Origin: an endosymbiont of unidentified scaly snail isolate Monju
GTDB lineage: Bacteria; Pseudomonadota; Gammaproteobacteria; Chromatiales; Chromatiaceae
Length of the DNA stretch: 64,000 nt
Reading direction: 5' to 3'
NCBI RefSeq assembly: GCF_000801295.1
Contig: NZ_AP012978.1
Location: 1-64,000 of the forward strand
Part shown: positions 6,509 to 63,207 of the stretch, piece after piece
Position numbering within the stretch: the stretch's first letter is position 1
Layout of the letters: every line of letters starts with the position of its first letter
The notes under the pieces: model-generated
The model's database searches: none
What the model saw: only the letters and a program-made list of their open reading frames with translations
What the model was told of the DNA's origin: nothing
Made by a program: the position numbers and the translations under genes

Positions 6509-6752
6509 CCCGAATATTTCACCGGCCGAACAAGGCTCCACCTCCAAGAGGTTGAATGATCGGACAAAAATGGCAAAAAAGAGGCCAATCCTTTGTCCCC
6601 CCGCGTTGTTCTATCCCGATTCCGGCGGGTTCTCGCTCACTGTGGCTTGGTTTTCACTCAAGCGATAGCTTGGGCTATCGCTTTCGTACCAAACCGGTGC
6701 CACAGCGGCTGCGAATTCCGCCGGCCATCGGGATGCCGGTGAAACATCCGGG
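6509..6752 (+). repeat. palindromic dispersed repeat, copy 1
   Basis: This 244 bp element has inverted ends: CCCGAATATTTCACCGG at 6509-6525 and CCGGTGAAACATCCGGG at 6736-6752 (15 of 17 pair). Inside is a hairpin AGCGATAGC (6661-6669) / GCTATCGCT (6674-6682), flanked by longer imperfect arms, so nearly the whole unit can fold back on itself. It begins immediately after the gyrB TAG. CTAG occurs on both sides (6505-6508 and 6753-6756), like a 4-bp target duplication. Copies 2-4 are at 14996, 62949 (inverted) and 13547. Short in-frame ORFs cross it but carry no start or RBS logic, so I treat it as non-coding and MITE-like. Confidence 0.85.
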
Positions 6753-6760
6753 CTAGTCCG

Positions 6761-6816
6761 AAGGCCGGTGAGCCCCACCGGCCTTATCCCCAGAGTTATC
6801 CCCAGAGTTATCCACA
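6761..6816 (+). promoter_or_regulatory. hairpin plus triple DnaA-box array
   Basis: A perfect 10-bp stem (AAGGCCGGTG 6761-6770 / CACCGGCCTT 6776-6785) is followed by three head-to-tail DnaA boxes at exact 12-bp spacing: TTATCCCCA 6784-6792, TTATCCCCA 6796-6804 and TTATCCACA 6808-6816. The last is consensus and the others differ at one base. The first box overlaps the foot of the hairpin. Possible roles are part of the origin, a DnaA-titration site, or control of neighbouring genes. The hairpin lacks a T-run, so it is a weak terminator candidate for gyrB. Confidence 0.7.
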
Positions 6817-6916
6817 GTTCGTTCCACAAGCCAGCGTCGGGTCAGCCTGGTGTACCCGTGCTGTTGCGCGACGGATGAAAATTACCGGAGAGTATCGAAA
6901 GTGAGTGATCGCATCG

Positions 6917-7642
6917 CTATCGAGGTAATTGCGAAGGGAGTTTTTCTACCTCGCCTTCGATCCAATCCTCGACCTCGGCGATGATCTGCTGGGCCTTCTT
7001 GCCGGTACTGGCGATGGGCGCGCCGACACGCACCTCGATGGTGCCGGGGTACTTTTTCACACCCCGTCGTTTCCAGTAGACACCGGCATTGTGCGCCACC
7101 GGCACCACCGGATAGCCGGACTTCTCGGCGAGGATGGCGCCGCCGATACCGTACCGGCGCCGCTCGCCCGGTGCGGTGCGGGTGCCCTCGGGGAAGATCA
7201 CCACGACGCGACCGTCGTCCAGAGCTCGCTTGCCCTCCTTGACCACCTGCAGCACGGCCTTGCGCCCGGCCTTGCGGTCGATGGGGATGGCGCGGCAGAA
7301 ACCCAGGGCCCAGCCGAAGAAGGGGATTTTCAGCAGCTCCTGTTTCAGCACCCAGGACTGGTGCGGCGCCAGCAGACCGCGCAGGGCGATCGTCTCCCAG
7401 GTGGATTGGTGCTTGGCCATGAGAATGGCGCCACCCTGGGGCAGGTGCTCCGCGCCCTCGATGTGGACACGCAGGCAGCAGATCCAGCGTTGCAGGCTGA
7501 TGTTGAGCCGGCCCCAGTGTGTGGCCACCCGGTCGCTGAAGCGGGTACCGAGGAAACGGCCCAGTATCGCGATAGTCAGGCCGTGGCTGACCACGGTCAG
7601 CGACATGAGCACGAAATAGATCAGGGAACGTGACAGGATCAT
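6917..7642 (-). CDS. plsC: 1-acyl-sn-glycerol-3-phosphate acyltransferase
   Basis: This enzyme acylates lysophosphatidic acid to phosphatidic acid at the inner membrane. The 241-residue product has an N-terminal hydrophobic segment (about residues 5-30), motif I KHQSTWET near residue 78 (H-x4-E instead of the commoner H-x4-D, as in some family members), and motif III FPEGTRT near residue 150. It overlaps gmhB upstream by 4 bp and is last in a minus-strand run glyQ-glyS-mazG-like-gmhB-plsC. The gmhB-plsC pairing is common in gammaproteobacteria. Confidence 0.9.
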   Translation of the reverse strand: MILSRSLIYFVLMSLTVVSHGLTIAILGRFLGTRFSDRVATHWGRLNISLQRWICCLRVHIEGAEHLPQGGAILMAKHQSTWETIALRGLLAPHQSWVLKQELLKIPFFGWALGFCRAIPIDRKAGRKAVLQVVKEGKRALDDGRVVVIFPEGTRTAPGERRRYGIGGAILAEKSGYPVVPVAHNAGVYWKRRGVKKYPGTIEVRVGAPIASTGKKAQQIIAEVEDWIEGEVEKLPSQLPR

Positions 7643-8172
7643 CGTTGTGTGAGTATCCAGGAAACGGCATGATCGAGGTCGTCGAAGGCCGGGACCTCGG
7701 GATAATCTGCCCGAGTCGCTATCCCGTGGCCTGTGAGCACCAGCAGCGGCATGGCGTTCGCGGCGCGAGCCGCCTCGATATCGGCGGTGTCGTCGCCGAT
7801 CACCGTGACCGTCTCGAGCGGGGTGTCCAGCCGATCTGCGATCTCGCGCAACATCCCGGTACCGGGCTTGCGGCAGTCACAGTTGCTCGCCTCGGTATGT
7901 GGACAGGTGAGCAGGGCGTCCAGGTGCCCGCCGACGCGTGCCAGACCCTCGGCCAGGCGCGCGTGAATGGCGTTCAGTGTCTCGATGTTCAAGCGTCCCT
8001 CGCCAAGGGCCGGCTGGTTGGTCGTCAGCGCTACCCGATAGCCGGCGTGGTTGAGTCGGGAGACGGCCTCCAGGCTGCCGGGAATGATGCACAGCCCGCT
8101 GACCGACAGCAGGCCGCCGGCGACAGGCTCCAGCAAGACGCCATCACGACCCAGGATGATCAGTGGCTGCAT
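7639..8172 (-). CDS. gmhB: GmhB-like heptose bisphosphatase, nucleophile missing
   Basis: GmhB removes the C7 phosphate of D-glycero-D-manno-heptose 1,7-bisphosphate for LPS core synthesis. The 177-residue HAD protein keeps the zinc loop CPHTEASNCDCRKP near residue 90 and the late acidic motif VIGDDTADIEAA near residue 124. Motif I, normally LDRDG, reads LGRDG at residues 8-12: the first Asp, the phosphate-accepting nucleophile, is Gly (codon GGT, one base from GAT). Motif II is also unusual (TNQPALGEG rather than TNQSG). The locus is the expected one beside plsC and glyS, so I infer an ortholog that has lost or changed activity. Confidence 0.8.
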   Translation of the reverse strand: MQPLIILGRDGVLLEPVAGGLLSVSGLCIIPGSLEAVSRLNHAGYRVALTTNQPALGEGRLNIETLNAIHARLAEGLARVGGHLDALLTCPHTEASNCDCRKPGTGMLREIADRLDTPLETVTVIGDDTADIEAARAANAMPLLVLTGHGIATRADYPEVPAFDDLDHAVSWILTQR

Positions 8173-8181
8173 GGCTGTCGT

Positions 8182-8526
8182 TCACTCCATGTCGCGAAAC
8201 TCGGAGACGCGAATACGCCCGTTGACCATGCGTGACTCGCGCTGCATCAGCTTGTCCATCTTCTCCCAGAAGGCCTGCTTGAGATCGAAGTCGGCCGCGA
8301 TGCCGGTGCCCATCAGCAGGATCAGAAGGTCGGCGACCTCCTCGGCCAGGGCCGCAGTGCTCTTGCCCTTGGTCACGCAACTGGAGATCTCGCCCAGTTC
8401 CTCGGCCATCAAGGCCACCCGGTAGCCGAGTTCCTCGCCCCCGGTGTTGCGGAAATCATGCTTGTCGTGAAACGCCTGTACGGCCGCCAGCATGGCGTCC
8501 CAGGAATCGCGATCCATCGTGTTCAT
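8182..8526 (-). CDS. MazG-like nucleotide pyrophosphohydrolase
   Basis: This 114-residue all-alpha protein has the acidic pattern of MazG/iMazG NTP pyrophosphatases: EELGE near residue 43, then EEVADLLILLMG near residue 62, the usual E-x2-E ... E-x2-D magnesium ligands. Such enzymes hydrolyse NTPs or dNTPs to the monophosphate; the substrate cannot be read from sequence. The ATG overlaps the glyS stop as ATGA, so it is translationally coupled to glyS. A second ATG three codons in is an alternative start. It lies between glyS and gmhB. Confidence 0.75.
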   Translation of the reverse strand: MNTMDRDSWDAMLAAVQAFHDKHDFRNTGGEELGYRVALMAEELGEISSCVTKGKSTAALAEEVADLLILLMGTGIAADFDLKQAFWEKMDKLMQRESRMVNGRIRVSEFRDME

Positions 8527-10610
8527 GCGGATTCGCCTCCACCGGCCTGCAAGCGCCCGATGTCGGCCACCTGGAGGAACAATTCCCGCGCGCGTCGCAA
8601 CAGGGCAAGCCGGTTGTTGCGCACCAGCGGGTCTTCGGCCATCACCATCACCTCGTCGAAGAACCGGTCGGTCGGTTCGCGCAGGCGGGCCAGGGTCTCG
8701 AGCTGCTTGATGTAATCGTCGGTGCGCAGGAGCAGGCCGCCTTCGACCGTCTTGATCTCGTCGAGCAGCACCTGTTCCGCCGTTTCTTCGAAGCGCTCGG
8801 GATCGACGGTCCGGGGGATGTTCTCACCGGCCTTTTTCAGGATGTTGCCGATGCGCTTGTTGGCGGCGATCAGGGCCTCGGCCTCGGGCAGTTTCAGGAA
8901 GGCCTGCACCGCCCGGATGCGTTGCTCGATATCGGCCAGGTCCGGCGGCGCCACCGTGATCACGGCCTCGAAGATGTCGGCCGAGACGCCGGCGTCGGCA
9001 TACAGCCGCCGCAGACGGTCGCGCATGAACTGCCATACCGTCTCCACGACGCCATTGTCATCCAGGCGGTCACCGAGTTGCTCCCGGGCCTGATCCAGGA
9101 GCTCCAGTACATTCAATGAAAGTGAATGCTCACGCAAGATGCGCAGGGCGCCGAGTGCGGCACGCCGCAGTGCGTAGGGATCCTTGTCGCCGGTGGGTTT
9201 CATGCCGATGCCGAAGATGCCGACCAGGGTGTCCAGGCGCTCGGCCAGGGCCACCGCGATGCCGGTGCGGGTCTCGGGCAGACGGTCGCCGGAGAAGCGC
9301 GGCATGTAGAACTCGTCCAGCGCATGCGCCAGCTCGGGGTCCTCGCCGTCGCGCAGTGCCTGGTAGCGGCCCATGATGCCCTGCATGTCCGGAAATTCGT
9401 AGACCATCTCGGTCATCAGGTCGCAGCGACTGAGCATGCCGGCGCGCCTTGCCTTCTCGACATCACCTCCGATCTGTTCCGCGATGCGCGCGGCCAGCGC
9501 TGCCACCCGCTCGGACTTCTCGTACATGGAGCCCAGGCGCTTCTCGAACACCACGTCTCTGAGCGAGTCGATGTGATCCTCGAGGCGCTTCTTGCCATCC
9601 TGCTCCCAGAAGAAGCGGGCGTCGGCCAGGCGCGGGCGGATCACCCGTTCGTTGCCGGCACGGACCATCTCGGGCTCGCGGCTTTCGATGTTGGCGATGG
9701 TAATGAAGTGGTTCAGCAAGCGGCCCTCGGCGTCGAACACCGGGAAATACTTCTGGTTGCCCTTCATGGTGCTCACCAGCGCCTCGTGCGGTACCTCGAG
9801 GAAGTCCGCATCGAAGCTGCCGGCAACCGGTACCGGCCACTCGTTGAGCGCGGTCACCTCGTCGAGCAGGGCCTCGTCGATGTCGGCTACCCCGCCGAGT
9901 TTCTTTGCGGTGGCCTCGACCTGCGCACGAATGCGTGAGCGACGATCCGGAAAGTAAGCGATCACTTTTCCCACATTCTCGAGAATGGCGGCATAGTCGG
10001 CCGGGTCATAGAGGGTGATGCCCTCGGGATGATGGAAACGGTGGCCGCGGGTGACGCGGCCGGCCGGGGTATCCAGCAGGGTGCACTCGACCACGGCGTC
10101 ACCATGCAGAAACACCAGCCAGTGTACCGGGCGCACGAACTGGGCCTCGGAGTCGCCCCAGCGCATGCGCTTGGGGATGGGCAGGCGCTCGAGCGCACGC
10201 TCGGCAATCGCCGGCAGCAGCTCGGCCGCGGGCTGGCCGGGCTGGTGCGAACGGAACACCAGCCATTCACCCTTGTCGGTCTCCAGGCGCTCGAGCTGGT
10301 CCACGGTGGTCCCGCAGGAGCGCGCGAAACCCTCGGCGGCCTTGGTGGGCCGGCCCTCGGCATCGAAGGCGGCCTTCACCGCGGGCCCGCGGCGTTCCAC
10401 GTCGCGGTCGGGCTGGCGTTGCTCGAGATCGCGCACCAGCAGCGCCAGGCGGCGGGGCGTGGCATAGGCGATCACTTCGCCGTGTGCCAGTTGTGCCTCG
10501 GACAGGCCGGTCAGGAAACCTTCCTCGAGGGCGCTGGACAGGCGCTTGAGGGCGGTCGGCGGCAGTTCCTCGGTGCCCAGTTCGAACAACAGATCGGCGC
10601 GATCACTCAT
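8523..10610 (-). CDS. glyS: glycine--tRNA ligase beta subunit
   Basis: GlyS is the large subunit of the bacterial alpha2beta2 glycyl-tRNA synthetase and carries tRNA-binding functions. The 695 residues match the proteobacterial beta subunit (about 690). The N-terminus ([12 protein letters not shown]) and the HD-like central region with [18 protein letters not shown] are typical. It overlaps glyQ by 4 bp upstream and the MazG-like gene by 4 bp downstream, so all three are probably co-transcribed. Confidence 0.97.
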
Positions 10611-11533
10611 GCGCTGGCCTCCTTCGCTTGACGCTCGCGGAGCATGGGGAAGCCCAGGCGCTCGCGGGCTTCGTAATAGGCCTGGGCCACGGCTCGGGCC
10701 AGGGCGCGTACGCGCAGGATGTAGCGCTGGCGTTCGGTCACCGAGATGGCATGCCGGGCATCCAGCAGGTTGAAGGCGTGTGAGGCCTCGAGCACCCGTT
10801 CATAGACGGGCAGGGGCAGTCCCAGTTCGATCAGGCGTTGCGATGCCTTTTCGCACTGGTCGAACAGGCCGAACAGGAATTCCACGTCGGCGTGTTCGAA
10901 GTTGTAGGCCGATTGTTCGACCTCGTTCTGGTGGAACACGTCGCCATAGGTCACGGTGCCCTGCGGGCCGCGGGTCCAGACCAGGTCGTAGACCGATTCC
11001 ACGCCCTGCAGATACATGGCGATGCGCTCCAGTCCGTAGGTGATCTCGCCGGTCACCGGTCGGCAGTCGAGCCCGCCAACCTGCTGGAAATAGGTGAACT
11101 GGGTGACCTCCATGCCGTTCAGCCAGACCTCCCAGCCCAGGCCCCAGGCGCCCAGGGTGGGCGATTCCCAGTTGTCCTCGACGAAGCGGATGTCGTGCAC
11201 CAGTGGGTCGATGCCCAGCAGTTGCAGCGAACCCAGGTACAGCTCCTGGATGTCCTTGGGTGAGGGCTTCATCACCACCTGGAACTGGTAGTAGTGCTGC
11301 AGGCGGTTGGGATTCTCCCCGTAGCGCCCGTCAGTGGGACGGCGCGACGGCTGTACATAGGCGGCGTTCCACGGCTCGGGACCGATGGAACGCAGGAAGG
11401 TCGCGGTGTGGAAGGTGCCCGCGCCCATCTCCATGTCGTAGGGCTGCAGGATCACGCAGCCCTGATCCGCCCAGTAGCGTTGCAGGGCGAAGATCAGCCC
11501 CTGGAAGGTCGATACGTCCGTATCCTGGCTCAT
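10607..11533 (-). CDS. glyQ: glycine--tRNA ligase alpha subunit
   Basis: GlyQ is the catalytic class II subunit of glycyl-tRNA synthetase. The 308-residue product shows the family core, including the near N-terminal [19 protein letters not shown] and the [19 protein letters not shown] region that contacts ATP. It is the first gene of the minus-strand operon glyQ-glyS-(mazG-like)-gmhB-plsC. It faces the plus-strand PP-loop gene, so the roughly 115 bp between them should hold divergent promoters. Confidence 0.97.
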
Positions 11534-11613
11534 GTCTGATGTTTCTCCGCCGGCCGGCGCCGGACCCCGGATAAAAACCGGGGATTATACAGCCTCTGTG
11601 TCTGTCCACTCCT

Positions 11614-11619
11614 TATAAT
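11614..11619 (+). promoter_or_regulatory. candidate -10 element of the PP-loop gene
   Basis: TATAAT lies 31 bp before the chosen ATG at 11651, in the divergent gap to glyQ. No clear -35 is visible. Confidence 0.4.
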
Positions 11620-11650
11620 GTCCCGTTTCACGACATCGACAGGCATCTCC

Positions 11651-12694: not shown

Positions 12695-12723
12695 CAATTT
12701 CCCACCTTTGCTAGACTGCCTGC

Positions 12724-13545
12724 ATGCAGGAAGCCCTGGATCGTCTGCCGACCGTCGTGATGGGCGCCGTCAGGCGTTTGTTGCGTCCGCTCGTGCGCCT
12801 GATGATCCGTCATGGCATCACCCTGCCTTCCATCGTCGAACTGCTGAAGCAGGTGATGGTGGAGGTTGCCATCGAGGATTTCCCGGTAGAAGGCAAGCGC
12901 ACCACCGACAGCCGGGTCAGCGTGCTTACCGGGGTTCACCGCAAGGATGTCAAGCGTTTCCGTGAACAGGGATTTCAGCGCAACGACGTGCCCAAGAAGG
13001 TCTCGCTGGGCATGCAGCTGGTCAACGCCTGGATGACCGAACCGCGCTGGCTGGACGAACAGGGCCGGCCCAGGGTATTGCTGCGACTGGCCGACGGAAG
13101 CGGTCGGCCCGATTTCGAGACCCTGGCCAACCACATCAGCAGCGATGTGCGTCCACGTGCGATCCTCGACGAACTGGTCCGCGTGGGTGTGGTGGAAGAG
13201 CGCGACAATCGTGTCGCCCTGCACACCGAGGCCTTCGTGCCAAGATTGTCCGAGGAAGAGAAGCTCTATTATTTCGAGCGTTCCGGCCATGCACACTTGA
13301 TGGCAGGCGTGCGTAACCTGGAAGGTACCGAGCCACCCTTCTTCGACCGCGTGGTGCAGTACCACAATATTCCGGAGACTGCCCTGCCCCGCTTGCGTCA
13401 GATGGTGGAAGAACAAGGCATGACGCTGTTGCGCGAGATCAACCGTGCGGCACGCGAGGTCAACGATTCGCAGGCATCGAAGCGGCACTCCTTTCTGGTC
13501 GGGCTCTACTGTTACCACGAACCTTCGATGGGTAACGATGACTAG
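12724..13545 (+). CDS. DUF6502-type conserved protein
   Basis: This 273-residue soluble protein has an N-terminal part (about residues 1-90) that resembles a winged-helix or DNA-binding fold: RRLLRPLVRLMIRHGITLPSI followed by a segment on VEGKRTTDSRVSVLTGVHRKDVKR. The C-terminal half has no motif I can assign. The family is conserved in proteobacteria without known function; I recall it as DUF6502. The 30 bp to the PP-loop gene suggests co-transcription. A diverged palindromic repeat begins one base after its TAG stop. Confidence 0.6.
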   Translation: MQEALDRLPTVVMGAVRRLLRPLVRLMIRHGITLPSIVELLKQVMVEVAIEDFPVEGKRTTDSRVSVLTGVHRKDVKRFREQGFQRNDVPKKVSLGMQLVNAWMTEPRWLDEQGRPRVLLRLADGSGRPDFETLANHISSDVRPRAILDELVRVGVVEERDNRVALHTEAFVPRLSEEEKLYYFERSGHAHLMAGVRNLEGTEPPFFDRVVQYHNIPETALPRLRQMVEEQGMTLLREINRAAREVNDSQASKRHSFLVGLYCYHEPSMGNDD

Positions 13546-14992
13546 ACCGGAGATGTCGCGCGTCGAACAGCGCCGGGATAGCAGGCGCTTGGCTGCTCGA
13601 GGGCAAACCTCGGGCACGCGCGGCAGTGGCCGGCTACCGTTTGTACCTGGTGTACCTGGCGCTGTTCTCTCCCGATTCCGCCGGCTGTCGGGATCCAGGC
13701 GACATCTCCGGGCTGGGATCTGGCGTCGTTGCGTCCTGGTCTGCTGCCTGGCGTTCTGGCCTCTGCTGGTCGATGGTGCAGCTGCCGCGCGCAATGTCTG
13801 TGCCCTGCCCGGCCTGGCACCGATCCACGACGGTCTGGGTGGGACCGGTCACACGGGTGGCGACGGGGAAGAAGGTCTGGGTGGCACGGGGCTGGTACCC
13901 GGCGATGGTGTCGGTGGAACCGGTCGTCCCTTGGCCGGCCTGCACGATGGTTTGGGCGGAACCGGGCACAGCGGCGATGGCCTGGGCGGGACCGGCCGTC
14001 CATACGAGACCTTGCGTATTCGCGGTGTGGTCACCGGCTTCGGCAGTGTCTGTGTGGATGGTCTCGAAGTGCAGTATTCGCCGGCAACCCCGGTGCATAT
14101 CGACGGCATGGAGGCCACCGCCGGCGCCCTGGCCGTCGGTCAGGTCGTGGATATCGAGGCCCGTCTGCAGGGCGGCAGCATTCATGCCGAGCAGATGCGG
14201 GTATTGCGTCAGCTCGTGGGCACGGTGGAACAGGTCGATGTCTTCGGCGGGCGTGTGCGTGTGGCCGGTACCCTGGTCGACATACCGGAGCGTGTTGCCG
14301 GACTGCGGATCCCGGATCTGCGTTCCGGCCAGCCGGTGATGGTCAGCGGCGTGTGGCGTGCGGATGGCGCCCTGCACGCCACGCGCATCGAAGCGGCTCC
14401 ACGGCACGACATGGTGACCGAGCCGCCACGGCCATTGCGCCATGGCCTGGCGGTACTCCAGGGCGTGGTGGCACAGGTACGGGAAGGATACATTCGACTG
14501 GTGGATGGACCCTCGATTCGCCTGCCGGGCGAGGTTCCGGCCCTGTCCCGGGGTTCCCTGGCCACGGTGGTGGTCGAGGTGAATGGGCGGCCGGACGTCG
14601 TGTCGCGCGCCCTGGCGGTCACCGACATTGACGATCTGCACCACCTGACGGGACGCCCCGAGCCCGAAGTCCCGACCCTGGCCGACCAGCCGGGCCGGGC
14701 CGGTGACGACGAACGGGGGACTCCGTCACATACAGAGTACAATGCGGCAGACACGGCAGGGATGCACCTCGACACCGAGTCTGGTTCACACGAGGTGGAA
14801 CTCGCCGACCAACCGGATTCCACCGAAACACCCGAGATCCCGGAACTGCAGGATGAACCCGATGAGCCGGATTTTCCCCAGGCCCCGGAGCCCCCGGAGT
14901 CACCAGATGAACCCGAGGTGCCCGAGGCACCCGATCTTCCGGAGCAGCCCGAAGTACCCGATGTACCGGAGCCTCCGGACGAAGTGGACTAG
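13538..14992 (+). CDS. DUF5666-like exported protein with glycine repeats and acidic proline tail
   Basis: The 484-residue frame contains a hydrophobic signal-like segment (CVLVCCLAFWPLLV, near residue 68), a run of about five GLGGTG or GVGGTG repeats (near residues 105-160), two to three beta-rich DUF5666-like units (about residues 165-370), and a long tail of Pro, Glu and Asp (about 430-484). The only usable start codons, ATG at 13538 or 13553, lie at or inside a diverged copy of the palindromic repeat. The first roughly 60 residues are therefore repeat-derived and the true start is uncertain. It is probably exported to the periplasm or surface. No partner or function is recognised. Confidence 0.6.
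   Translation: MTRPEMSRVEQRRDSRRLAARGQTSGTRGSGRLPFVPGVPGAVLSRFRRLSGSRRHLRAGIWRRCVLVCCLAFWPLLVDGAAAARNVCALPGLAPIHDGLGGTGHTGGDGEEGLGGTGLVPGDGVGGTGRPLAGLHDGLGGTGHSGDGLGGTGRPYETLRIRGVVTGFGSVCVDGLEVQYSPATPVHIDGMEATAGALAVGQVVDIEARLQGGSIHAEQMRVLRQLVGTVEQVDVFGGRVRVAGTLVDIPERVAGLRIPDLRSGQPVMVSGVWRADGALHATRIEAAPRHDMVTEPPRPLRHGLAVLQGVVAQVREGYIRLVDGPSIRLPGEVPALSRGSLATVVVEVNGRPDVVSRALAVTDIDDLHHLTGRPEPEVPTLADQPGRAGDDERGTPSHTEYNAADTAGMHLDTESGSHEVELADQPDSTETPEIPELQDEPDEPDFPQAPEPPESPDEPEVPEAPDLPEQPEVPDVPEPPDEVD
13547..13711 (+). repeat. palindromic dispersed repeat, copy 4 (short, diverged)
   Basis: The inverted ends CCGGAGATGTCGC (13547-13559) and GCGACATCTCCGG (13699-13711) pair perfectly over 13 bp. They differ in sequence from the other copies, so both ends changed together. 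Inner blocks match copy 2: GTCGAACAGCG, GTTTGTAC, TCCCGAT and CGCCGGCTGTCGGGAT. The middle part with the GCGATAGC hairpin is missing, giving 165 bp instead of about 250. The copy starts one base after the TAG of the DUF6502 gene and is read through by the DUF5666-like frame. Confidence 0.65.
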
Positions 14993-14995
14993 TCA

Positions 14996-15242
14996 GGATG
15001 TTTCACCGGCCGAACAGCGTTTGAAGTCCGGGCTGTTGCGTGATCGAACAAGAATGGCAAAAAGGGACGCCAAGCGACGGTCACGGTTTGTACTCCACGT
15101 TGCTCTATCCCGATGCCAGCGGTTTATCACTCGTTGTGGCCTGTTTTTCACTCGAGCGATAGCTCCGCTATCGCTTCCGCTCCAAATCGGCGCCGAAGCG
15201 GCCGCGAATACCGCCGGCTCTCGGGATGCCGGCGAAACATCC
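14996..15242 (+). repeat. palindromic dispersed repeat, copy 2
   Basis: This 247 bp copy has ends GGATGTTTCACCGGC (14996-15010) and GCCGGCGAAACATCC (15228-15242), which pair in 14 of 15 positions. The internal hairpin is AGCGATAGC (15155-15163) / GCTATCGCT (15167-15175). It begins 4 bp after the DUF5666-like TAG stop (CTAG at 14989-14992), and CTGG follows at the other end. The next gene starts about 70 bp downstream, so the element probably lies in the transcript between the two genes. Confidence 0.8.
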
Positions 15243-15313
15243 GCACTGGCCGGACGATTCCCGAGGGAACAAGCCCGCTTTCTTCTCCCGGATGGCAACA
15301 AGTAGAACCTCCC

Positions 15314-16066
15314 ATGCGAATCGCCTTGCCACTGATGCTGTTGTCTCTGCCGCTGGTTGCCGTGGCGAAAGACGGTACCCGCCTGTCGTTGAGCGTCTAC
15401 GAGGCCACCGGCCACTATGGAAGTCCCGTCCGGACCACGATCCAGAGTGTGGCACTGGGTCTGCGTCATCGCACGGGACACTGGACCTTGCGGGCCAGCA
15501 TCCCCTGGCTGTACATCCGTGGTGCGGCCAACGTCCTGCCTGACGGAGCGACCACCGCGGGGAGCACGACACGCCGCTCGCGCAGAGGCCTGGGAGACGT
15601 GAACCTCTCGGTAGCTCGCCGCCTGTTCTACTACGACCAGGAACTGCGAGCCGGCCTTTCGGCCCGGGTCGCCGTGAAGCTGCCGACCGCCAGTCGCAAT
15701 CAGGGCCTGGGTACTGGGGAACCGGATTTCACCATGGAGCTGGCACCTTATGGTTATCTGGGCAGCCATACCTGGTTCGCGGCCCTCGGCTATCGCAAGT
15801 ACGGTGATACGCCGACGACCGACTATCAGGACGGGTGGTTGCTGCGACTGGGGCTGTCGCGCCCCTTGAGTGACTATCAGGCCATGGGTCTGAGCCAGCG
15901 TTTTCGCCAGAGCAATCGGGCGGGTCGTGACGATCAGCAGAGCCTGATGTTGTTTCACGACCTGCGCCTGGAGCAGGGCTGGCGGACCCAGACCTATCTC
16001 ATTCGGGGCTTCTCGGATGCGACCGCCGAATGGGCTGGCGGGCTGTCGTTGATCAAGGCGTTCTGA
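15314..16066 (+). CDS. putative outer-membrane beta-barrel protein
   Basis: The 250-residue product starts with a clear Sec signal peptide (MRIALPLMLLSLPLVAVAKD) and then shows alternating hydrophobic and polar strands with many aromatic girdle-type residues, ending in ...LIKAF with a terminal Phe, the usual outer-membrane insertion signature. It resembles small transporter-like barrels of uncertain function. The start at 15314 follows AGTAGAACCTCCC, only a weak RBS. The frame is open further upstream through the repeat, but that part is not credible as protein. It sits after the DUF5666-like gene and may be transcribed with it. Confidence 0.65.
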   Translation: MRIALPLMLLSLPLVAVAKDGTRLSLSVYEATGHYGSPVRTTIQSVALGLRHRTGHWTLRASIPWLYIRGAANVLPDGATTAGSTTRRSRRGLGDVNLSVARRLFYYDQELRAGLSARVAVKLPTASRNQGLGTGEPDFTMELAPYGYLGSHTWFAALGYRKYGDTPTTDYQDGWLLRLGLSRPLSDYQAMGLSQRFRQSNRAGRDDQQSLMLFHDLRLEQGWRTQTYLIRGFSDATAEWAGGLSLIKAF

Positions 16067-55337: not shown

Positions 55338-55365
55338 GCTCTCCTCTCTGCCCGGCGCAGCCTGC

Positions 55366-56583: not shown

Positions 56584-58111
56584 CGTCTCCCAGCAGCGAC
56601 TTGCCGGTCATCTCGATGGGCTGCTCCAGGCCCATGATGCGCAGCAGGGTGGGGGCCACGTCACACAGGGCGCCATTGTCCTTGAGTGTGTCGAACTGAC
56701 GGCCCACGTAGACCAGGGGTACCGGGTTGGTGGTGTGCGCGGTATGGGCCTGGCCGATCTCCGGGTCGCGCATCTGCTCGGCATTGCCGTGGTCGGCGGT
56801 GATCAGTATCTCGCCGCCGACCACGCGCGCCGCGGCCACCACCCGGCCGATGCATTCGTCGAGCACCTCGATGGCCTGCACGGCGGCGTCGAAATTGCCG
56901 GAATGGCCCACCATGTCACCGTTGGCGTAGTTGCAGATGATGGCGTCGTAGGTGCCGCCGCGGATTGCTTCGACCAGCTTTTCGGTGACCTCGCGCGCAC
57001 TCATCTCCGGCTGCAGGTCGTAGGTGGCGATCTGCGGCGAAGGCACCAGAACGCGGTCCTCGCCCTCGAAGGGTTGTTCCAGCCCGCCGTTGAAGAAAAA
57101 GGTCACGTGCGCATACTTTTCGGTCTCGGCGATGCGCAGCTGGCGCAGGCCGAGACGGGCGATGTACTCGCCGAAGGTGTTGGTCAGGCGCTCCGGCGGA
57201 TAGGCCACCGGGATGTCGAATTCCTTGTTGTACTGGGTGAGCGAGACGTAGCGCGCGATCTTCGGTGTGGCTCGGCGCTCGAAGCAGTCGAAGTCCGGCT
57301 CGATGAAGGGGCGAGTGATCTGGCGCGCGCGGTCGGAGCGGTAGTTCATGTTGATGATGACATCCCCGTCTTCGACCGGGATCGGTGTGCCGATGCGCGT
57401 GGGCGAGACGAACTCGTCGGTCTCGCCACGTTCGTAGGCGGCGTGCAGCGCGGTGATGCTGTCGTCATGGGCGTACTCGTCCTCGCCCAGGGTGATCAGG
57501 TCGTAGGCCTTGCGGATGCGCTCCCAGCGGTGGTCGCGGTCCATGGCGAAATAGCGCCCGATCATGGTGGCCAGGCGCCCCCCGCCGACCTCGCTGAACA
57601 CCTCGCCCAGTTTGCGCAGCGAGGCCTCAGCCGACTTGGGCGGCATGTCGCGGCCGTCGAGGAAGGCATGCACCACGGTCTCGGCGCCGCGTTCGACTGC
57701 CAGGCGCACCATGGCGTGGATGTGTTCCTCGTGGCTGTGCACCCCACCGGGCGAGAGCAGTCCCAGGATGTGCACCCGACGGCCATGGGCGACAGCGGCG
57801 TCCACCGCGTCGGTGAGCGTCAGGTTGGAGTAGAAGGACCCGGTGCGGATCGAGCGACTGACCCGGGTGAATTCCTGGTACACCACGCGGCCGGCGCCCA
57901 GGTTGAGGTGGCCCACCTCGGAATTGCCCATCTGACCGCCCGGCAGGCCCACTGCCGAGCCCGAGGTGCGCAGGGCGGTGTGAGGACACTCTGCCCAGAG
58001 GCGATCCCAGTTTGGCTTGCGAGCCGCCGCGATGGCGTTGTATTCCTGTTTGTCGCTCAAGCCCCAGCCATCGAGGATCAACAGGATGGCGGGTCTGACC
58101 TTGCTGCTCAT
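56576..58111 (-). CDS. gpmI: phosphoglycerate mutase, cofactor-independent
   Basis: GpmI interconverts 3- and 2-phosphoglycerate with Mn. The 511-residue product has [10 protein letters not shown] at the start, the catalytic Ser in [14 protein letters not shown] near residue 60, and metal-site motifs such as [11 protein letters not shown] and [14 protein letters not shown] 58111 is preferred to an upstream in-frame GTG. It leads the operon gpmI-envC-ctpA-yibQ. Confidence 0.96.
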
Positions 58112-58409
58112 GTCGTCTGTCACCACGCATCGCCACGCCGGGGCATGGCGACCATCAGAAGTTCAAAGGGATGGGGTCGGAAAGGCGCGCCGGCGCCCGC
58201 AGCCACGCGAAGAATGTGTTCAATTAAACCATAGGTGGCAACCCCAAGGCCAACCATGCATCCGTCACGGATAAAGCGGGTTTTACCCGTAATCAAAGAA
58301 AAAAAGGTCGCCAACCGGCGTCCTTTTCGGTTTAATTTAATTCGGACGAGTATTACAATATCAGCAAGCAGGAATGCAGGCCCCGGCAACCGGAAGGAGT
58401 GACAGGTTG
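58112..58409. other. intergenic region between gpmI and the BigR-like regulator
   Basis: 298 bp, partly AT-rich (58295-58370, with A and T runs). An imperfect hairpin GGTCGCC AACC GGCGTCC sits at about 58316-58332 between an A-run and a T-run. No gene is seen. It should hold divergent promoters for gpmI and the regulator. Confidence 0.4.
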
Positions 58410-58769
58410 ATGAATTTCACCATCGAGGACTCGGATCCCCTCGTGAACGACGATACCGAAAACGAACTCGGTCTGCTGCATGGCGACGAAGATATCGACC
58501 GCGCCTCGCGGGCACTCAAGGCGATGTCGCATCCCCTGCGCCTCAAGATTCTCTGCACCCTGGGTGACCAGGAGGTCAGCGTGCAGGAGATCGTAGAGCG
58601 CGTCGGCACCTCGCAGAGCAACATCTCGCAGCATCTTGTGATCCTGCACGATAAGGGTATCCTCACCTCCCGCAAGGACGCCAACCGCGTCTTCTACCGT
58701 GTGAGCGACAACCGTACGCTGCAGCTCATCGGCATGATGCGCGAGGTGTTCTGCTCCAGCGGTCACTGA
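58410..58769 (+). CDS. ArsR-family repressor, BigR/SqrR-like two-cysteine type
   Basis: The 119-residue winged-helix protein has RALKAMSHPLRLKILCTLG and QSNISQHLVILHDKGIL, with Cys49 and Cys115 (ILC and VFC). The metal box ELCVCDL of ArsR/SmtB is absent. BigR and SqrR carry Cys at these same two positions and form a tetrasulfide when reactive sulfur is present, which relieves repression. A rhodanese lies downstream. AAGGAG at 58393-58398 supports a start at 58407/58410 over ATG 58374. Confidence 0.8.
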   Translation: MNFTIEDSDPLVNDDTENELGLLHGDEDIDRASRALKAMSHPLRLKILCTLGDQEVSVQEIVERVGTSQSNISQHLVILHDKGILTSRKDANRVFYRVSDNRTLQLIGMMREVFCSSGH

Positions 58770-58875
58770 GCGACTCGCCGGGCCGACCGGCGCGACCTTG
58801 CAACGACGATCCTGACAGCATCGACAGGAACGGGGCCATCGCGTCCCGTTTCTTCGTGGTGGAGACCCGGACCCC

Positions 58876-59298
58876 ATGCAACAGTACCTCGAATTCGCGG
58901 CCAATCACCCTGTGCTGATCGGCGCCTTCGTGCTCATCCTGGGCGCCCTGATCTGGAACCTGCTGCGCGAAGGCACCAGCGGCCTGAACATCGGCCCGGC
59001 CGAGGCCACACTCAAGATCAACCACGAGGATGCCGTGGTGGTGGACGTGCGCTCGATCAAGGAATTTTCCGAAGGCCACATCCTGCATGCCGAGAACATC
59101 CCGCTCAACGGGTTGAAGAACCAGTTGCCGGCGCTGGAGAAGTACCGCCAGCGCCCGATCATCATGGTGTGCCGCAGTGGCTCCCGATCGGGCGTGGCCG
59201 CCACCACCCTGCGCAAGGCAGGTTTCGAGCAGGTGTACAACCTGCGTGGCGGCATGCTGGCCTGGGAAAGCGCCGGCCTGCCGGTGACACACCGCTAA
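58876..59298 (+). CDS. membrane-anchored rhodanese-like sulfurtransferase
   Basis: The 140-residue product has one N-terminal TM helix (about residues 10-28) and a single rhodanese domain with the active Cys in MVCRSGSRSG near residue 98. Such proteins accept or pass persulfide sulfur. It lies between a sulfur-sensing-type regulator and secB; in many gammaproteobacteria this position before secB holds a rhodanese of this kind. Confidence 0.9.
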   Translation: MQQYLEFAANHPVLIGAFVLILGALIWNLLREGTSGLNIGPAEATLKINHEDAVVVDVRSIKEFSEGHILHAENIPLNGLKNQLPALEKYRQRPIIMVCRSGSRSGVAATTLRKAGFEQVYNLRGGMLAWESAGLPVTHR

Positions 59299-59316
59299 CC
59301 ACAGGAACCACAAGCC

Positions 59317-59781
59317 ATGACCGATGACGCACAGGCCGAGAACGCCCCTCAGTTTGCCATTCAGCGGATCTATGTGAAGGATCTGTCCTTCGAGTCGCCC
59401 AATGCCCCACAGATCTTCCTGGAGGACGGCGCGCCCGAGATCCAGGTCGGATTGCAGACCGAGGTGACCGCCCTTGGTGACGAGACCTACGAGGTGGTGC
59501 TCACCGTAAATGTGGAGGCCAGGCTCGCCGAGCGCACCATCTACCTGGTGGAGGTGCAACAGGCCGGTATCTTCCTGGCCCGCAACTTCCCCGAGGACCA
59601 GCTGGGCCCCCTGCTCGGCATCGGTGCCCCCAACGCCTTGCTGCCCTATGCGCGCGAATTGATCTCGGACCTGACCACCCGCGGCACCTTCGCGCCGTTC
59701 ATCCTGCAGCCGGTCAACTTCGAGGCCATGTACGCCCAGCAGCAGGCCGACGCGCCGACCGACGAGCCTGCCACCCACTGA
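59317..59781 (+). CDS. secB: protein-export chaperone SecB
   Basis: SecB keeps preproteins unfolded and hands them to SecA. The 154-residue product has the family pattern: QRIYVKDLSFESPNAPQIF near residue 15, the hydrophobic groove segments, and LLPYARELISDLTTRGTF near residue 108. The C-terminal acidic tail is short. It lies 18 bp after the rhodanese gene and 9 bp before gpsA. Confidence 0.96.
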   Translation: MTDDAQAENAPQFAIQRIYVKDLSFESPNAPQIFLEDGAPEIQVGLQTEVTALGDETYEVVLTVNVEARLAERTIYLVEVQQAGIFLARNFPEDQLGPLLGIGAPNALLPYARELISDLTTRGTFAPFILQPVNFEAMYAQQQADAPTDEPATH

Positions 59782-59790
59782 GCCTCGGCC

Positions 59791-60795
59791 ATGGCGGACG
59801 AGCGCATCGGGGTACTCGGCGCTGGTTCCTGGGGTACCGCCCTGGCAATCGACTTCGCGCGCCACCGGCCGCTCAGCCTCTGGTCGCACAGCAGCGAAGA
59901 GGTCGCCGCCTTGCAGCGTGATCGCGAGAACCGGCACTACCTGCCCGGCATCCCCTTCCCCGAGGCCCTGGCGCTGGAAGACGACCTCGGCCGCCTGCTG
60001 GAAGACTGCGGCGAGGTGTTGATCGTGGTGCCCAGCCATGCCTTTGCCGGGCTCTGCGCGCGGATCGCGGAGCTGGCTCCCGGGCTGTCTTCGCTGTCCT
60101 GGGCCACCAAGGGCTTCGAGCCCGAAAGCGGCAGGTTGCTCAGCGAAGTGGCCGCTCACTATTTCCCACAGGCGACGCTCGGCGTGCTGTCCGGCCCCAC
60201 CTTTGCCCGCGAAGTCGCCCAGGGATTGCCGACGGCCATCACCATTGCCTCCACCGATCCCGCGCACGCGCGGCGCCTGGCCGACTGGATGCGCAGTGAC
60301 CACTTTCGGGTGTACACCAGCGGTGACCTGGTGGGGGTGCAGGTCGGTGGCGCGGCCAAGAACGTGATGGCCATTGCCGCTGGCATCTCCGACGGCCTGG
60401 GTTTCGGCGCCAATGCGCGCGCGGCGCTGATCACCCGGGGCCTGTCCGAGATCACTCGCCTGGGGCTGGCACTGGGCGGGCGCGCCGAGACCTTCATGGG
60501 CCTGGCAGGGCTGGGCGACCTGGTGCTCACCTGTACCGATGACCAATCGCGCAACCGGCGCCTGGGCCTGGCCCTGGCCGCCGGACAGTCGCTGGATCAC
60601 GCGCGCGCGGCCATCGGTCAGGAAGTCGAGGGCGTGGGCACCGCACGCGAGGTGCACCGCAAGGCGCAGGAGCTGGGAATCGAGATGCCGATCACCGAGC
60701 AGACCTGGCGTGTGCTCTACCAGGGACTGCCCCCACGCGAGGCCGTCCACAACCTGCTGTCGCGACAGCCTCGGGCCGAGGAGGTTTTCCGATGA
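59791..60795 (+). CDS. gpsA: glycerol-3-phosphate dehydrogenase [NAD(P)+]
   Basis: GpsA makes sn-glycerol-3-phosphate from dihydroxyacetone phosphate for phospholipid synthesis. The 334-residue product has the dinucleotide site GVLGAGSWGTALA at the start and the catalytic Lys region GGAAKNVMAIAAG near residue 190. It follows secB in the usual order and overlaps the next gene by 4 bp. Confidence 0.96.
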   Translation: MADERIGVLGAGSWGTALAIDFARHRPLSLWSHSSEEVAALQRDRENRHYLPGIPFPEALALEDDLGRLLEDCGEVLIVVPSHAFAGLCARIAELAPGLSSLSWATKGFEPESGRLLSEVAAHYFPQATLGVLSGPTFAREVAQGLPTAITIASTDPAHARRLADWMRSDHFRVYTSGDLVGVQVGGAAKNVMAIAAGISDGLGFGANARAALITRGLSEITRLGLALGGRAETFMGLAGLGDLVLTCTDDQSRNRRLGLALAAGQSLDHARAAIGQEVEGVGTAREVHRKAQELGIEMPITEQTWRVLYQGLPPREAVHNLLSRQPRAEEVFR

Positions 60796-61337
60796 ACGAT
60801 TCCGCTGACTACCTGCTGCCCGAGGAGCTCGACAAGCTGCAGAGCGTGCTGGTCGAGCACATGTCGACCTCGGGTAGCATGCCGCTGGATGCCGCGCATG
60901 GTTATCTCTCCGCGCTGGCTGCGCACACCGATCGCGTGGATCACGCGGCGGTGCTCGGCGAGATCGCCGGCGAGCACGGCATCGAGCCCCTGCTGCGCAA
61001 GTTTCACGAGCAGATCCTGCGCGACCTGGAAAGTGGCGAATACGGGCCACTGATCATGCAGATGCCGCGCGAGGACGGCAGCATGCTGCCCCTGCCCTAT
61101 GGCTGGTGCGAGGGCTATGTCCTGGGTCTGAATACCGCTGGCGAGGACCGGCGCGAACTGGCGGCTGCCGACGAACAGGCCGCGGCGCGGCTCACGCCCA
61201 TCTATGCCTTCCTGATGTACGAAGAGTCGCAGATGTTCGATCCACCCGACGAGCAGGCGCACCGCGAGACGGTCGGCGAACTGGGCGAGAGCGCGGTGTG
61301 GCTGTATCGCTGGTGGCAGCAGCGGGGCGGCGCGTGA
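60792..61337 (+). CDS. UPF0149 / YecA-family protein
   Basis: The 181-residue helical protein matches the UPF0149 (YgfB/YecA) family: SGSMPLDAAHGYLSALAAH near residue 28, PLPYGWCEGYVLGL near residue 100 and TPIYAFLMYEESQ. It lacks the C-terminal SEC-C zinc motif of YecA. Function is unknown. It overlaps gpsA and the next gene by 4 bp, so it is co-transcribed. Confidence 0.85.
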   Translation: MNDSADYLLPEELDKLQSVLVEHMSTSGSMPLDAAHGYLSALAAHTDRVDHAAVLGEIAGEHGIEPLLRKFHEQILRDLESGEYGPLIMQMPREDGSMLPLPYGWCEGYVLGLNTAGEDRRELAAADEQAAARLTPIYAFLMYEESQMFDPPDEQAHRETVGELGESAVWLYRWWQQRGGA

Positions 61338-61945
61338 GACGCGGCCTGCTGGTGCTGCTGCTGGCGCTGTGTGGCCTGGCCGCTGCGGCCCATGTCACCG
61401 ACCGGCTGGTCATTGGCCTGTACGAGACGCCAGCGTTGCAAGGCGAGCCACAGCGCCTGCTGGCCAGTGGTACGCCGATCGAGGTGCTGGCACGTCGCGC
61501 CGGCAAGGCGCAGGTGCGGCTGGGAGACGGCACCACGGGCTGGATCGAGGCGCGTTACGTTTCGGAAGAGAAGCCGGCGGCCATGCAGTTGCTGGAGGCG
61601 CGCGCCGAGATCCGCCGCCTGCGCCAGCGCCTGGCCGGCGTGCGTGCCGGCATCGAGCTCGCCAGGGCACGGGAGCGCATTGCCGAGCTGGAGCAGGCGC
61701 TGGCCGAGCTGCCGTCCCTGCGGGCGGCTGCCGCCGAGCGCGACGAGCTGGCCAGGCGCTTGCAACAAGTCCGCGACCTGCTCGGTGCGGAGGCTGCAGA
61801 GGGGGTCGCTTCCTCCCCTGCCTCACGCAGCGGCGCCGACTATTCCTGGAGCCTGGCGGGCTTGCTGATGTTGGCCGGCTTCGTCGCCGGTGTGGCGCTG
61901 GTCAAGCTGCGGCTGCGCCGGCGTTACCGTGGCCTGCGGCTTTAG
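61334..61945 (+). CDS. SH3-domain membrane protein (TIGR04211/YgiM type)
   Basis: The 203-residue product, GTG start overlapping the previous stop (GTGA), has a signal peptide, a bacterial SH3 domain (about residues 25-85, GTPIEVLARRAGKAQVRLGDGTTGWI), a coiled coil (about 90-150) and a C-terminal TM helix (about 172-192). This layout matches the YgiM family of envelope proteins. Confidence 0.85.
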   Translation: MRRGLLVLLLALCGLAAAAHVTDRLVIGLYETPALQGEPQRLLASGTPIEVLARRAGKAQVRLGDGTTGWIEARYVSEEKPAAMQLLEARAEIRRLRQRLAGVRAGIELARARERIAELEQALAELPSLRAAAAERDELARRLQQVRDLLGAEAAEGVASSPASRSGADYSWSLAGLLMLAGFVAGVALVKLRLRRRYRGLRL

Positions 61946-62045
61946 GGAACCTCTGACTAATTCTGACGCGAGCAGATTGTGGTGAAAATCGTCGGGTTCG
62001 AGTGCCGGCAACGCAGCTCCCTGACCTGGTCGAGCTCCCCCTTGC

Positions 62046-62885
62046 CTATTTGCCCTTGGCGGCGGCGTATTCGAAGGAGTCGTAGTGGATCTGCGCGTCG
62101 GGCACGCTGGCTGAATGCAGCGCGTCCAGCGCTGCCTTGACCATCACCGGCGGGCCGGCCATGTAGAAGTCGTGGGCCGCCAGGTCGTCGATGTCGGCCA
62201 GCACCGCCTCGTGCACGAAACCGGTACGCCCCGTCCAGTCGGCATCGGGCTCGGAGAGCACCGGTACATAACGAAAGTTGGCATGCTCGCGCGCCCACTG
62301 TTCGGGCAGGTCCGGCAGGTAGAGGTCGCGCTGCGAGCGCACCCCCCAGTACAAAGTCATCGGCCGCTCGATACCCTTGTGGAAGGCATGCTCGATCTGC
62401 GACTTGAGCGGGGCCAGGCCGGTGCCGCCGCCGATGAACAGCATGGGGCGCGGCGAGGCCTCGTCGAGCACGAAGTCGATGTATTGCCCGGCGCGGAACT
62501 GCAGGCGCTGGGTGTCCGGCAGCTTGAGCCAGAGGCGGACCACGTCGTGTGCCAGGTGGTCGATACCCTGCACCCGTGCCGGCAGCACGCGCACCTCGAT
62601 CTGCTCCAGGCTCTCGACCTCGCGCGCCTCGAGCACCAGGTCGCTGTGCGGATGAGCCACGCAGGGCAGGCAGCGGTCTTCGGGTTCATGCTCCAGCGCC
62701 TCGGGCGGACCGTCGGGGTACTCCACCTCGCCTTGCGCGAGGATGGCGGTGCAGGTCCCGCAGCGCCCGCTGCGGCAACCGTATGGGAGACCGATGCCCT
62801 CGCGGATGGCCGCGTCGAGGACCGTTTCTCCGGACTCGACAGAGAATTCGCGCCCGCTGGGCAGAAGCGTGACCTTGAAACTCAT
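62046..62885 (-). CDS. 2Fe-2S/FAD reductase lacking the FAD-binding segment
   Basis: The 279-residue product resembles CDP-6-deoxyglucoseen reductase (AscD/RfbI) and related ferredoxin-FNR fusions: ferredoxin domain with GCRSGRCGTC near residue 37, then QYIDFVL, then directly ASPRPMLFIGGGTGLAPLKS. In the family about 56 residues lie between these, including the RxYS FAD motif (RRSYSIAN) and the IEGPxG strand. Here they are gone, in frame. The NAD(P) half is intact. The protein should not bind FAD normally. ATG 62885 is chosen; ATG 62924 is the alternative. Confidence 0.75.
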   Translation of the reverse strand: MSFKVTLLPSGREFSVESGETVLDAAIREGIGLPYGCRSGRCGTCTAILAQGEVEYPDGPPEALEHEPEDRCLPCVAHPHSDLVLEAREVESLEQIEVRVLPARVQGIDHLAHDVVRLWLKLPDTQRLQFRAGQYIDFVLDEASPRPMLFIGGGTGLAPLKSQIEHAFHKGIERPMTLYWGVRSQRDLYLPDLPEQWAREHANFRYVPVLSEPDADWTGRTGFVHEAVLADIDDLAAHDFYMAGPPVMVKAALDALHSASVPDAQIHYDSFEYAAAKGK

Positions 62886-62948
62886 GGCGTTGGTGCCGTG
62901 CAGAATGATGAGAGAATAGGGCATTCTCGGCGATCGGCCGGGACAATT

Positions 62949-63207
62949 AACCCGAATATTTCACCGGTATCCCGAGAACCGGCGGAATTCGCAGCCGTTG
63001 TGGCGCCGGTTTGGAGCGAAAGGGATAGCTGAAGCTATCGCTTGAGCGAAAACCAAGCCACAGCGAGCGAGAAACCGCCGGAATCGGGATAGAACAATGC
63101 GCGCCACAAACGGTAACCGATGATTGGCATTCCTTGTGTGCCATTTTTGCTCGATCATTCCGCCCTTTGAGCTTGGAGCGTTGTTCGGCCGGTGAAATAT
63201 TCGGGTT
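62949..63207 (-). repeat. palindromic dispersed repeat, copy 3 (inverted)
   Basis: The best preserved copy: 259 bp with perfect 19-bp inverted ends, AACCCGAATATTTCACCGG (62949-62967) and its complement at 63189-63207. Its reverse complement aligns along its whole length with copy 1, including CCGAACAA, ATGATCG-GCAAAAATGGCA and the GATAGC/GCTATC hairpin. It lies between the divergent reductase and epimerase genes. TTAA and TTGA flank it. Confidence 0.85.

Follow-up and report, generated by a model that had tools for sequence, protein, structure and literature searches.

The window, a stretch of 64,000 nucleotides from the 2.6 Mb genome of a probable deep-sea vent snail symbiont (G000), carries four copies of a palindromic repeat, all lying next to or between genes. 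Three of the copies retain a long inner hairpin (P3). The copies and hairpins are located as follows:

6505..6756, + strand: copy 1, consisting of CTAG (6505-6508), an element of 244 bp (6509-6752) and CTAG (6753-6756)
6612..6735, + strand: inner long hairpin (P3) of copy 1
13542..13716, + strand: copy 2, consisting of CTAG (13542-13545), a short form of 166 bp (13547-13712) and CTGG
14989..15249, + strand: copy 3, consisting of CTAG (14989-14992), an element of 253 bp (14993-15245) and CTGG
15106..15228, + strand: inner long hairpin (P3) of copy 3, with the tip GCGATAGC / GCTATCGC
62947..63209, - strand: copy 4, consisting of TTAA (62947-62950), an inverted element of 255 bp (62951-63205) and TTGA
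62968..63091, - strand: inner long hairpin (P3) of copy 4

The original prediction had placed four copies with inverted ends at these positions, and all four were recovered, the start given for copy 3 (14996) lying 3 bp inside the true start at 14993. Terminal inverted repeats occur in every copy, with lengths and complementarities of 22 nt and 91%, 16 nt and 94%, 20 nt and 85%, and 19 nt and 100% for copies 1 to 4, respectively, and the proposed paired changes between left and right ends were likewise observed. The GCGATAGC hairpin is present in three of the four copies, as predicted, with 10, 9 and 6 exact pairs. In copy 2 the long inner hairpin is reduced while the terminal and second stems are retained with paired changes. 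Three of the four copies sit on a TAG stop codon: the left CTAG provides the stop codon of gyrB at copy 1, of a DUF6502 gene (12724-13545) at copy 2 and of the gene for a DUF5666 protein at copy 3. Copy 4 is flanked by two divergent genes. In the sister species (G003), gyrB is followed by other sequence and the element of copy 1 is absent; the places of copies 2, 3 and 4 are occupied, and the left end of the counterpart of copy 2 was not recognised.

Both searches proposed with the original prediction returned further copies. BLASTN of copy 3 against its own genome yielded 20 places (21 rows, one being the opposite strand of another) with a best non-self match of E 2e-64, and a chance origin of the copies is excluded. 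A covariance model restricted to the inner hairpin (124 columns, built from 25 of 34 aligned copies) matched at least 23 distinct places in G000 (35 rows minus 12 on the opposite strand) and at least 18 in G003 (28 minus 10), the weakest matches having E values of about 5e-4 and 2e-4. These counts are lower bounds because 150 of 1254 first-look candidates were scored in G000 and 150 of 1291 in G003. As the model spans only the inner hairpin, copies without it are missed; copy 2, in which most of the hairpin is absent, gave a partial match of 12.7 bits (E 0.33). The family, about 254 bp long, occupies approximately 25 places in G000 and at least 18 in G003. No match to the element was obtained in plasmid and phage collections.

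Counts of size, flanks and gene position refer to 37 copies, 19 from G000 and 18 from G003. This set excludes the fragments at 2354654 and 1827504 (G000), locus L048 (G003), and places where nothing but a terminal repeat or a model match was found (e.g. L060-L066 and L226-L229); it includes L034a of G003, the left end of which was guessed. The copies range from 139 to 256 bp; those of about 250 bp have many indels, and the element seems to encode no transposase. Many copies per genome and terminal inverted repeats are traits of bacterial MITEs. The repeat belongs to this known kind of non-autonomous element; the family itself was not found described in the literature searched.

The copies end in the terminal inverted repeats CCCGAATATTTCACC / CCCGGATGTTTCACC, and outside these lies a 4-bp target, YTAR, in most cases CTAG or TTAA. 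YTAR occurs at 25 of the 64,000 positions of the window. It is present on both sides of 8 of 19 copies in G000 and 8 of 18 in G003, with identical flanking 4-mers in 6 of 19 and 6 of 18. Element-free orthologous sites with a single YTAR were found in both directions between the two species. Of 22 copies checked, five had such a site, giving the combination of target duplication and empty site seen in bacterial MITEs: L016 (TTAA), L012 and L013 (both CTAG) are copies of G000 with an empty site in G003, and L039 (TTAA) and L040a (CTAG, with an adjoining 7-base gap) are copies of G003 with an empty site in G000. For the remaining 17, the site had changed, showed one side only, was filled or a remnant, read GTAG (L020) or could not be matched; at eight element-free sites (L009, L011, L015, L022, L040b, L041, L047 and L050) bases were altered or missing and no clean YTAR was left. 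Other MITE families of the genus have identical YTAR on both sides in 12 of 15 copies, L223 being excluded because a single end was found. We concluded that YTAR is duplicated on insertion and that insertions differ between the sister species. REP/BIME-type repeats moved by a RAYT (Y1) transposase are palindromic, intergenic and dispersed as well; however, a length of about 250 bp, terminal inverted repeats and a 4-bp target duplication are not REP-like, and the empty sites also disfavour this origin, the chance of which we regard as negligible.

To identify elements with the same ends, we examined 57 fetched loci matching the IS1380 transposase domain PF13701. Thirteen distinct elements had two inward-facing ends, all 13 with YTAR on both sides and seven with identical 4-mers on both sides. 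Six of these (L101-L104, L123 and L124) measure 1569-1764 bp and carry a long transposase frame, while the other seven, all from G001, are shorter pieces of 971-1478 bp; two of the latter (L140 and L148) lie between CTAA and TTAG, an inverted rather than a direct repeat. At its left (CCCGAATATTTCA) and right (CCCGGATGTTTCA) ends, the MITE is identical over 13 bases, and in the same polarity, to the IS1380 elements of G045 (L103 and L124), a genome from the same bacterial family as G000. The elements of G046 and G058 (L101, L102 and L123) differ by one base per end. Sixteen of the 57 loci had only unpaired ends beside YTAR and 25 had neither, some of these being cut by contig borders or broken; in L110, L112, L114 and L132, however, such ends are missing although the match is long. 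We discounted three further inward pairs: those of L121 and L126 lack a YTAR pair and were regarded as chance, and L144 is the same place as L140. The transposases were identified by NF033539.1 (E 7e-124 for L123 and 4e-111 for L131) and PF13701 (E as low as 5e-169). One point against this kinship is that the IS1380 member IS1247 is listed in PMC3281130 with a 5-bp duplication. Autonomous elements with matching ends are thus provided by the IS1380 elements of G045, G046 and G058, with pieces in G001. The MITE shares with them the 13 terminal bases (identical in G045), the left/right asymmetry and the YTAR flanks. In contrast, it is about 250 bp long, has a different interior and contains no detected transposase; compared by eye, the likeness is confined to the ends, and the MITE cannot readily be derived from a known copy by deletion. 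A search of the whole G000 genome with PF13701 detected no IS1380 transposase, and the repeat is therefore not a member of the IS1380 family proper, which encodes one.

IS701 and the IS5 group have YTAR-type targets, and a YTAR preference is not unique to these IS1380 elements. Because of this target, IS701 (PF13546) had been tried first as the partner. PF13546 matched in 13 of 57 genomes of the bacterial family, but neither in G000 nor in G007, the two of this genus's eight genomes that were searched, and the PF13546 loci L071-L100 contained six terminal-repeat-like matches, none beside YTAR. IS701 was rejected on these grounds, and mobilisation by any non-IS1380 transposase with YTAR targets appears highly improbable. 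In G001, an 878-bp tandem unit with one IS1380 end was also discarded as an autonomous element, as by eye it contained only a short transposase-like frame and a response-regulator-like piece. The statement of the original prediction that no transposase is linked holds genome-wide in G000 for both PF13701 and PF13546. Its suggestion of a MITE agrees with the terminal repeats, the YTAR duplications, the empty sites and the insertion sequence family with the same ends. Judging from these sequence comparisons, the repeat is very likely a non-autonomous MITE, about 254 bp long, that an IS1380-family transposase mobilised in trans. Such a transposase was not found in G000 today and very probably mobilised the copies earlier.

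The copies share a Y-shaped fold consisting of a terminal stem, a short second stem and the long inner hairpin. Fold z-scores ran from -4.2 to -10.5. In an alignment of 34 copies (omitting copy 2, L021, L034a, L044, L049 and L050), 19 pairs had double changes compared to 5.7 after shuffling (0/500), exceeding both shuffled and slid controls; thus the arms do covary when more copies are aligned, as had been anticipated. In contrast to this count-based test, the RNAalifold covariation term was near zero (-0.32). In two copies one arm has been copied from the other, resulting in perfect arms of 32 and 46 bp. Fold and covariation would also be expected of a structured RNA, attenuator or terminator held for its function at gene ends and spread by duplication or conversion. 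We compared five orthologous pairs (L021/L043 was skipped because L021 is omitted from the alignment). Paired positions differed slightly less than unpaired ones (55/477 versus 110/739; 11.5% versus 14.9%, p 0.10), but among 47 changed pairs only 3 were compensated, 19 were kept by one-side changes and 25 were broken. At shared loci, changes are almost as frequent at paired sites as at unpaired ones, so that the fold seems to be maintained while the element spreads and not as a settled RNA function. Both sources proposed earlier for the paired changes, selection on structure and gene conversion of ends, thus gained support from the covariation and the arm copying, respectively; retained function at fixed loci did not.

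In both genomes together, 14 of 37 copies lie directly at a stop codon compared to 12 of 49 background YTAR sites (p 0.24); G000 alone has 10 of 19 (p 0.04). Inside called genes were 43 of 92 background YTAR sites and 2 of 37 copies, both in doubtful calls. A special targeting of stop codons was rejected, the excess not being significant for both genomes together, and the genome-wide stop-codon position is little more than YTAR rarity explains. Rfam gave no match at the gathering score for the window and seven loci, and no terminator-like site occurred in 6400-6900, the sole region scanned. Together with the decay of pairing at inherited loci, this speaks against the predicted structured RNA or attenuator as a retained function, which we consider very unlikely.

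Under mobilisation by IS1380, the transposase would have recognised approximately 13-15 terminal bases; YTAR would have been cut with a 4-bp stagger and the element joined to it. Both strands of CTAG and TTAA contain TAG or TAA, so that duplication of the target would restore the stop codon and make insertion at a gene end harmless. Either selection during mobility or template switching, with one arm copied onto the other, may have preserved the Y-shaped foldback in copies that were spreading; once a copy became fixed, the foldback would decay.

Correia elements (CREE) are bacterial MITEs that differ from the snail-symbiont MITE in ends, size and host; they are named in PMC4133298. The TIMEs described in that paper are likewise non-autonomous (262 bp) but have Tn3-derived 38 bp ends and a 5-6 bp duplication. 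MITEPye1 of Paracoccus yeei, according to PMC11578231, is similarly small, without transposase and mostly intergenic, has terminal and direct repeats and a long stem-loop fold, and is thought to be moved by an insertion sequence with the same ends; in contrast, it is linked to IS1182 and not IS1380, and has 1-3 chromosomal copies. The present comparison names a probable driver for the symbiont's repeat family and provides pairs of sites before and after insertion between a symbiont and a free-living relative. Here a fold seems conserved as long as mobile copies are compared but decays where the element is fixed, which calls for caution when RNA genes are called from repeat covariation.

The genus has two more MITE families, the G006 and G004 types, whose interiors are unlike and which also fold back (one copy of each was folded). 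Most copies of the G000/G003, G006 and G004 types measure 242-256 bp and have common ends, a common target and a terminal stem around a long hairpin and a second domain. The Y-shaped foldback itself might be required for the spread of MITEs driven by IS1380, a tentative and rather unlikely model; if true, it would mean that the element's DNA or RNA is recognised as a structure when the element transposes or becomes established. A distant likeness between the G006 and G004 types is possible, 6 of 200 shuffles being as good.

Four copies of one dispersed repeat, as the original prediction had claimed, were recovered in the window. They belong to a family of about 254 bp that we read as a MITE moved in trans by an IS1380-type transposase.

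6509-6752, + strand: copy 1, repeat family member
13547-13712, + strand: copy 2, repeat family member
14993-15245, + strand: copy 3, repeat family member
62951-63205, - strand: copy 4, repeat family member

The genome (G000) is a single contig of 2,597,759 bases, of which the window is the first 64,000; contig C1 of the sister species (G003) has 2,745,378 bases. PMC9381778, on scaly-foot snail symbionts, gives 2.60 Mb for the published symbiont genome and names CTD079 as the closest known free-living relative. BLASTN of copy 3 against its own genome returned 20 distinct places (21 rows). Twenty-five family copies served to build a covariance model of the inner hairpin. It located 23 distinct places in G000 and 18 in G003; the congeneric genomes G002, G004, G006 and G007 had fewer, and G001 and G005 none. 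These counts are all minimal, since only 150 first-look candidates were scored per genome. With copy 2 and a BLASTN fragment at 1827504, the total in G000 is about 25 places. By BLASTN, the family occurs in 6 of 38 genomes including G000 itself; all five positive relatives (of 37) are among the seven of its genus. In plasmid and phage collections, it was not found at the BLASTN sensitivity used.

The copies are flanked by a 4-bp target, YTAR, mostly CTAG or TTAA. Among 19 copies of G000 with both ends placed, YTAR occurs on the left in 13, on the right in 11 and on both sides in 8, with identical 4-mers in 6; the corresponding figures in G003, from 18 copies of which one has its left end guessed, are 13, 10, 8 and 6. 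As background, YTAR stands at 25 of the 64,000 positions in the window, a number that includes the sites of the copies themselves. The 18-base terminal repeat (≤3 mismatches) matched in all eight genomes of the genus, 9 to 92 times per genome, and the reversed pattern used as a control gave 0 or 1 match per strand. In G006, G005 and G004 the same ends bound families with other insides; 13 of the 15 copies placed measure 235-244 bp and two 139 bp, and 12 carry identical YTAR on both sides. The 139-bp forms of the G006 family, L217 and L225, keep both ends and by eye lack the long inner hairpin; their flanks are TCAG/TTAG and TTAA/TTAA, respectively. A more distant family member, L226 (G000:C1:1084500-1085300), has the ends CCCGGATATCGCACCAAG and a 12-bp second stem, indicating that older sub-families exist in G000.

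The claim that no transposase is linked to the repeat holds as regards IS1380, as a PF13701 profile search gave no match in G000. Within the bacterial family, 22 of 57 genomes gave matches (17 over the cut-off); within the genus, four of eight did (three over the cut-off). G003 holds a decayed piece, G002 two weak matches, and G004 one longer match without the MITE-type ends; in G001, a stretch starting CCCGAATATTTCACAAATAA beside YTAR runs on into the initial portion of an IS1380-type transposase. The transposases of L123 and L131 hit the IS1380 family transposase model NF033539.1. A search for the MITE end, allowing ≤2 mismatches, covered each of the 57 PF13701 loci fetched (L101-L157). Inward-facing pairs were present in 16, or 13 distinct elements after exclusion of L121 and L126, which look like chance, and L144, which repeats L140. 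All 13 have YTAR on both sides, with identical 4-mers in 7. The other 41 loci, several of them truncated, comprise 16 with at least one end beside YTAR and 25 without; the long matches lacking MITE-type ends (L110, L112, L114, L132) indicate that such ends mark only part of the IS1380 family. The G045 elements share the left end CCCGAATATTTCA and right end CCCGGATGTTTCA with the MITE, in the same polarity relative to the transposase. Those of G046 and G058 are one base off at each end, whereas those of G057 differ by more. An IS1380 piece in a Uliginosibacterium MAG adjoins the end CCCGGATATTTCACCGGC. In PMC3281130, the IS1380 member IS1247 is listed with 16/13 repeats and with a duplication of 5 bp, unlike the 4 bp of the MITE. 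In the largely open-access literature searched, no title among those listed named IS1380-driven MITEs or YTAR-target MITEs of this kind, and no listed title on MITEs in Chromatiaceae or at stop codons named such elements.

Loci L051 (G001:C22:9500-16500, from 2999) and L052 (1763-4399) of G001 consist of head-to-tail tandem units of about 878 bp. Each starts with CTAA and the IS1380 end CCCGAATATTTCATCCGC; inspection by eye shows in it a short frame resembling a transposase and a piece resembling a response regulator. This end has at least about 50 matches in G001; among the matches listed, more than 10 lie at about base 100 of a contig.

Orthologous sites were compared by joining the flanks without the element, for 11 G003 copies (sought in G000) and for 11 G000 copies (sought in G003) to which no fetched G003 copy is a full partner. 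One clean YTAR stood at the element-free junction of L016 and L039 (TTAA) and of L012 and L013 (CTAG). L040a showed a single CTAG with a 7-base gap adjoining, and L020 read GTAG. Eight others (L009, L011, L015, L022, L040b, L041, L047, L050) aligned through the junction with bases changed, added or missing. At the G003 site of L010, a full copy in G000, 33 extra bases are a remnant of the element (L064, G003:C1:2135128; L177). Six (L017, L036, L037, L042, L044, L049) were matched on one side only, filled or unclear, with a diverged terminal repeat at the G003 site of L017; the joined flanks of L018 gave no match in G003. G003 carries a partner at the corresponding position for copies 2, 3 and 4 and for L014, L019, L021 and L023, and has other sequence at the gyrB site of copy 1.

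Copy 1 lies at the TAG stop of gyrB, copy 2 at that of a DUF6502 gene and copy 3 at that of a DUF5666 gene; copy 4 is placed between divergent genes. At L021 and at L039, the two neighbouring genes converge with the element exactly between them, and both terminate at the duplicated site. A simple gene caller made for the analysis placed 10 of 19 copies in G000 and 4 of 18 in G003 in contact with a stop codon, but overlooked copy 3 and L034b, both of which lie at one as well. In 198 kb, 92 further YTAR sites were classified: 43 fall within genes, 37 are intergenic and 12 coincide with stops. Stop-codon contact in both genomes together was 14/37 against 12/49 (p 0.24), and p was 0.04 for G000 alone. 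The caller set L034b and L044 within genes, and its first version also gave frames running across copy 4 (62947-63897) and across a portion of copy 3 (15113-16066); we judge these frames spurious or over-extended, and the value of 0/37 copies entered in the inside-gene test depends on that judgement.

Three parts make up the predicted fold: the terminal stem, a second stem, of the GAACAACGC/GCGTTGTTC type, and a long hairpin that copy 2 has in reduced form; single-copy z values were -4.2 (copy 3), -6.2 (L012) and -5.8 (copy 2). In an alignment of 34 copies, 94.8% of cells pair. The paired arm changes noted originally recur there: double-sided changes affect 19 of 48 pairs (5.7 in shuffles, at most 8 in a slid control) and 32 cells (7.7 in shuffles, at most 10 when slid); 0/500 shuffles reach this, and relatedness of the copies can inflate such a count. 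The RNAalifold covariation term is only -0.32. Distant members such as L226 and copy 2 keep the second stem with other letters. Inside the ends, a G000 copy showed no sequence likeness to a copy of G006 (125 of 200 shuffles as good) or to one of G004 (55 of 200); for G006 against G004, 6 of 200 shuffles equalled the match. The G006 and G004 copies nevertheless both fold with z -10.5; a terminal stem is joined by one long hairpin and by a second domain, their order being the reverse of that in the G000 copies. Perfect inner arms span 32 bp in L018 and 46 bp in L022, compared with longest exact inverted repeats of 4-13 bp in the other 32 copies. The right arm of each is a repeat of its left arm, a pattern that suggests template-switch correction, a known mechanism acting on quasi-palindromes.

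At fixed loci, five orthologous pairs differed at 55 of 477 paired versus 110 of 739 unpaired positions (p 0.10). Of 47 pairs with changes, 25 had lost pairing in one of the two copies, 19 still paired after a change on one side and 3 were compensated. Over six aligned pairs, element identity was 78.9-97.6%, comparable with the 79.4-93.8% of their flanks, in which coding and non-coding sequence are mixed. Thus, nothing in these comparisons shows a maintained role for the fold at fixed loci, though a weak one is possible.

Downstream of gyrB and copy 1, near dnaA-gyrB, positions 6784-6817 hold three DnaA-box-like 9-mers, TTATCCCCAGAG twice and then TTATCCACAG; TTATCCACA occurs further at 1613 and, reversed, at 62. 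Five imperfect repeats of about 20 nt (GACGGTCTGGGTGGGACCGG type) lie at 13829-13995 inside the DUF5666 frame.
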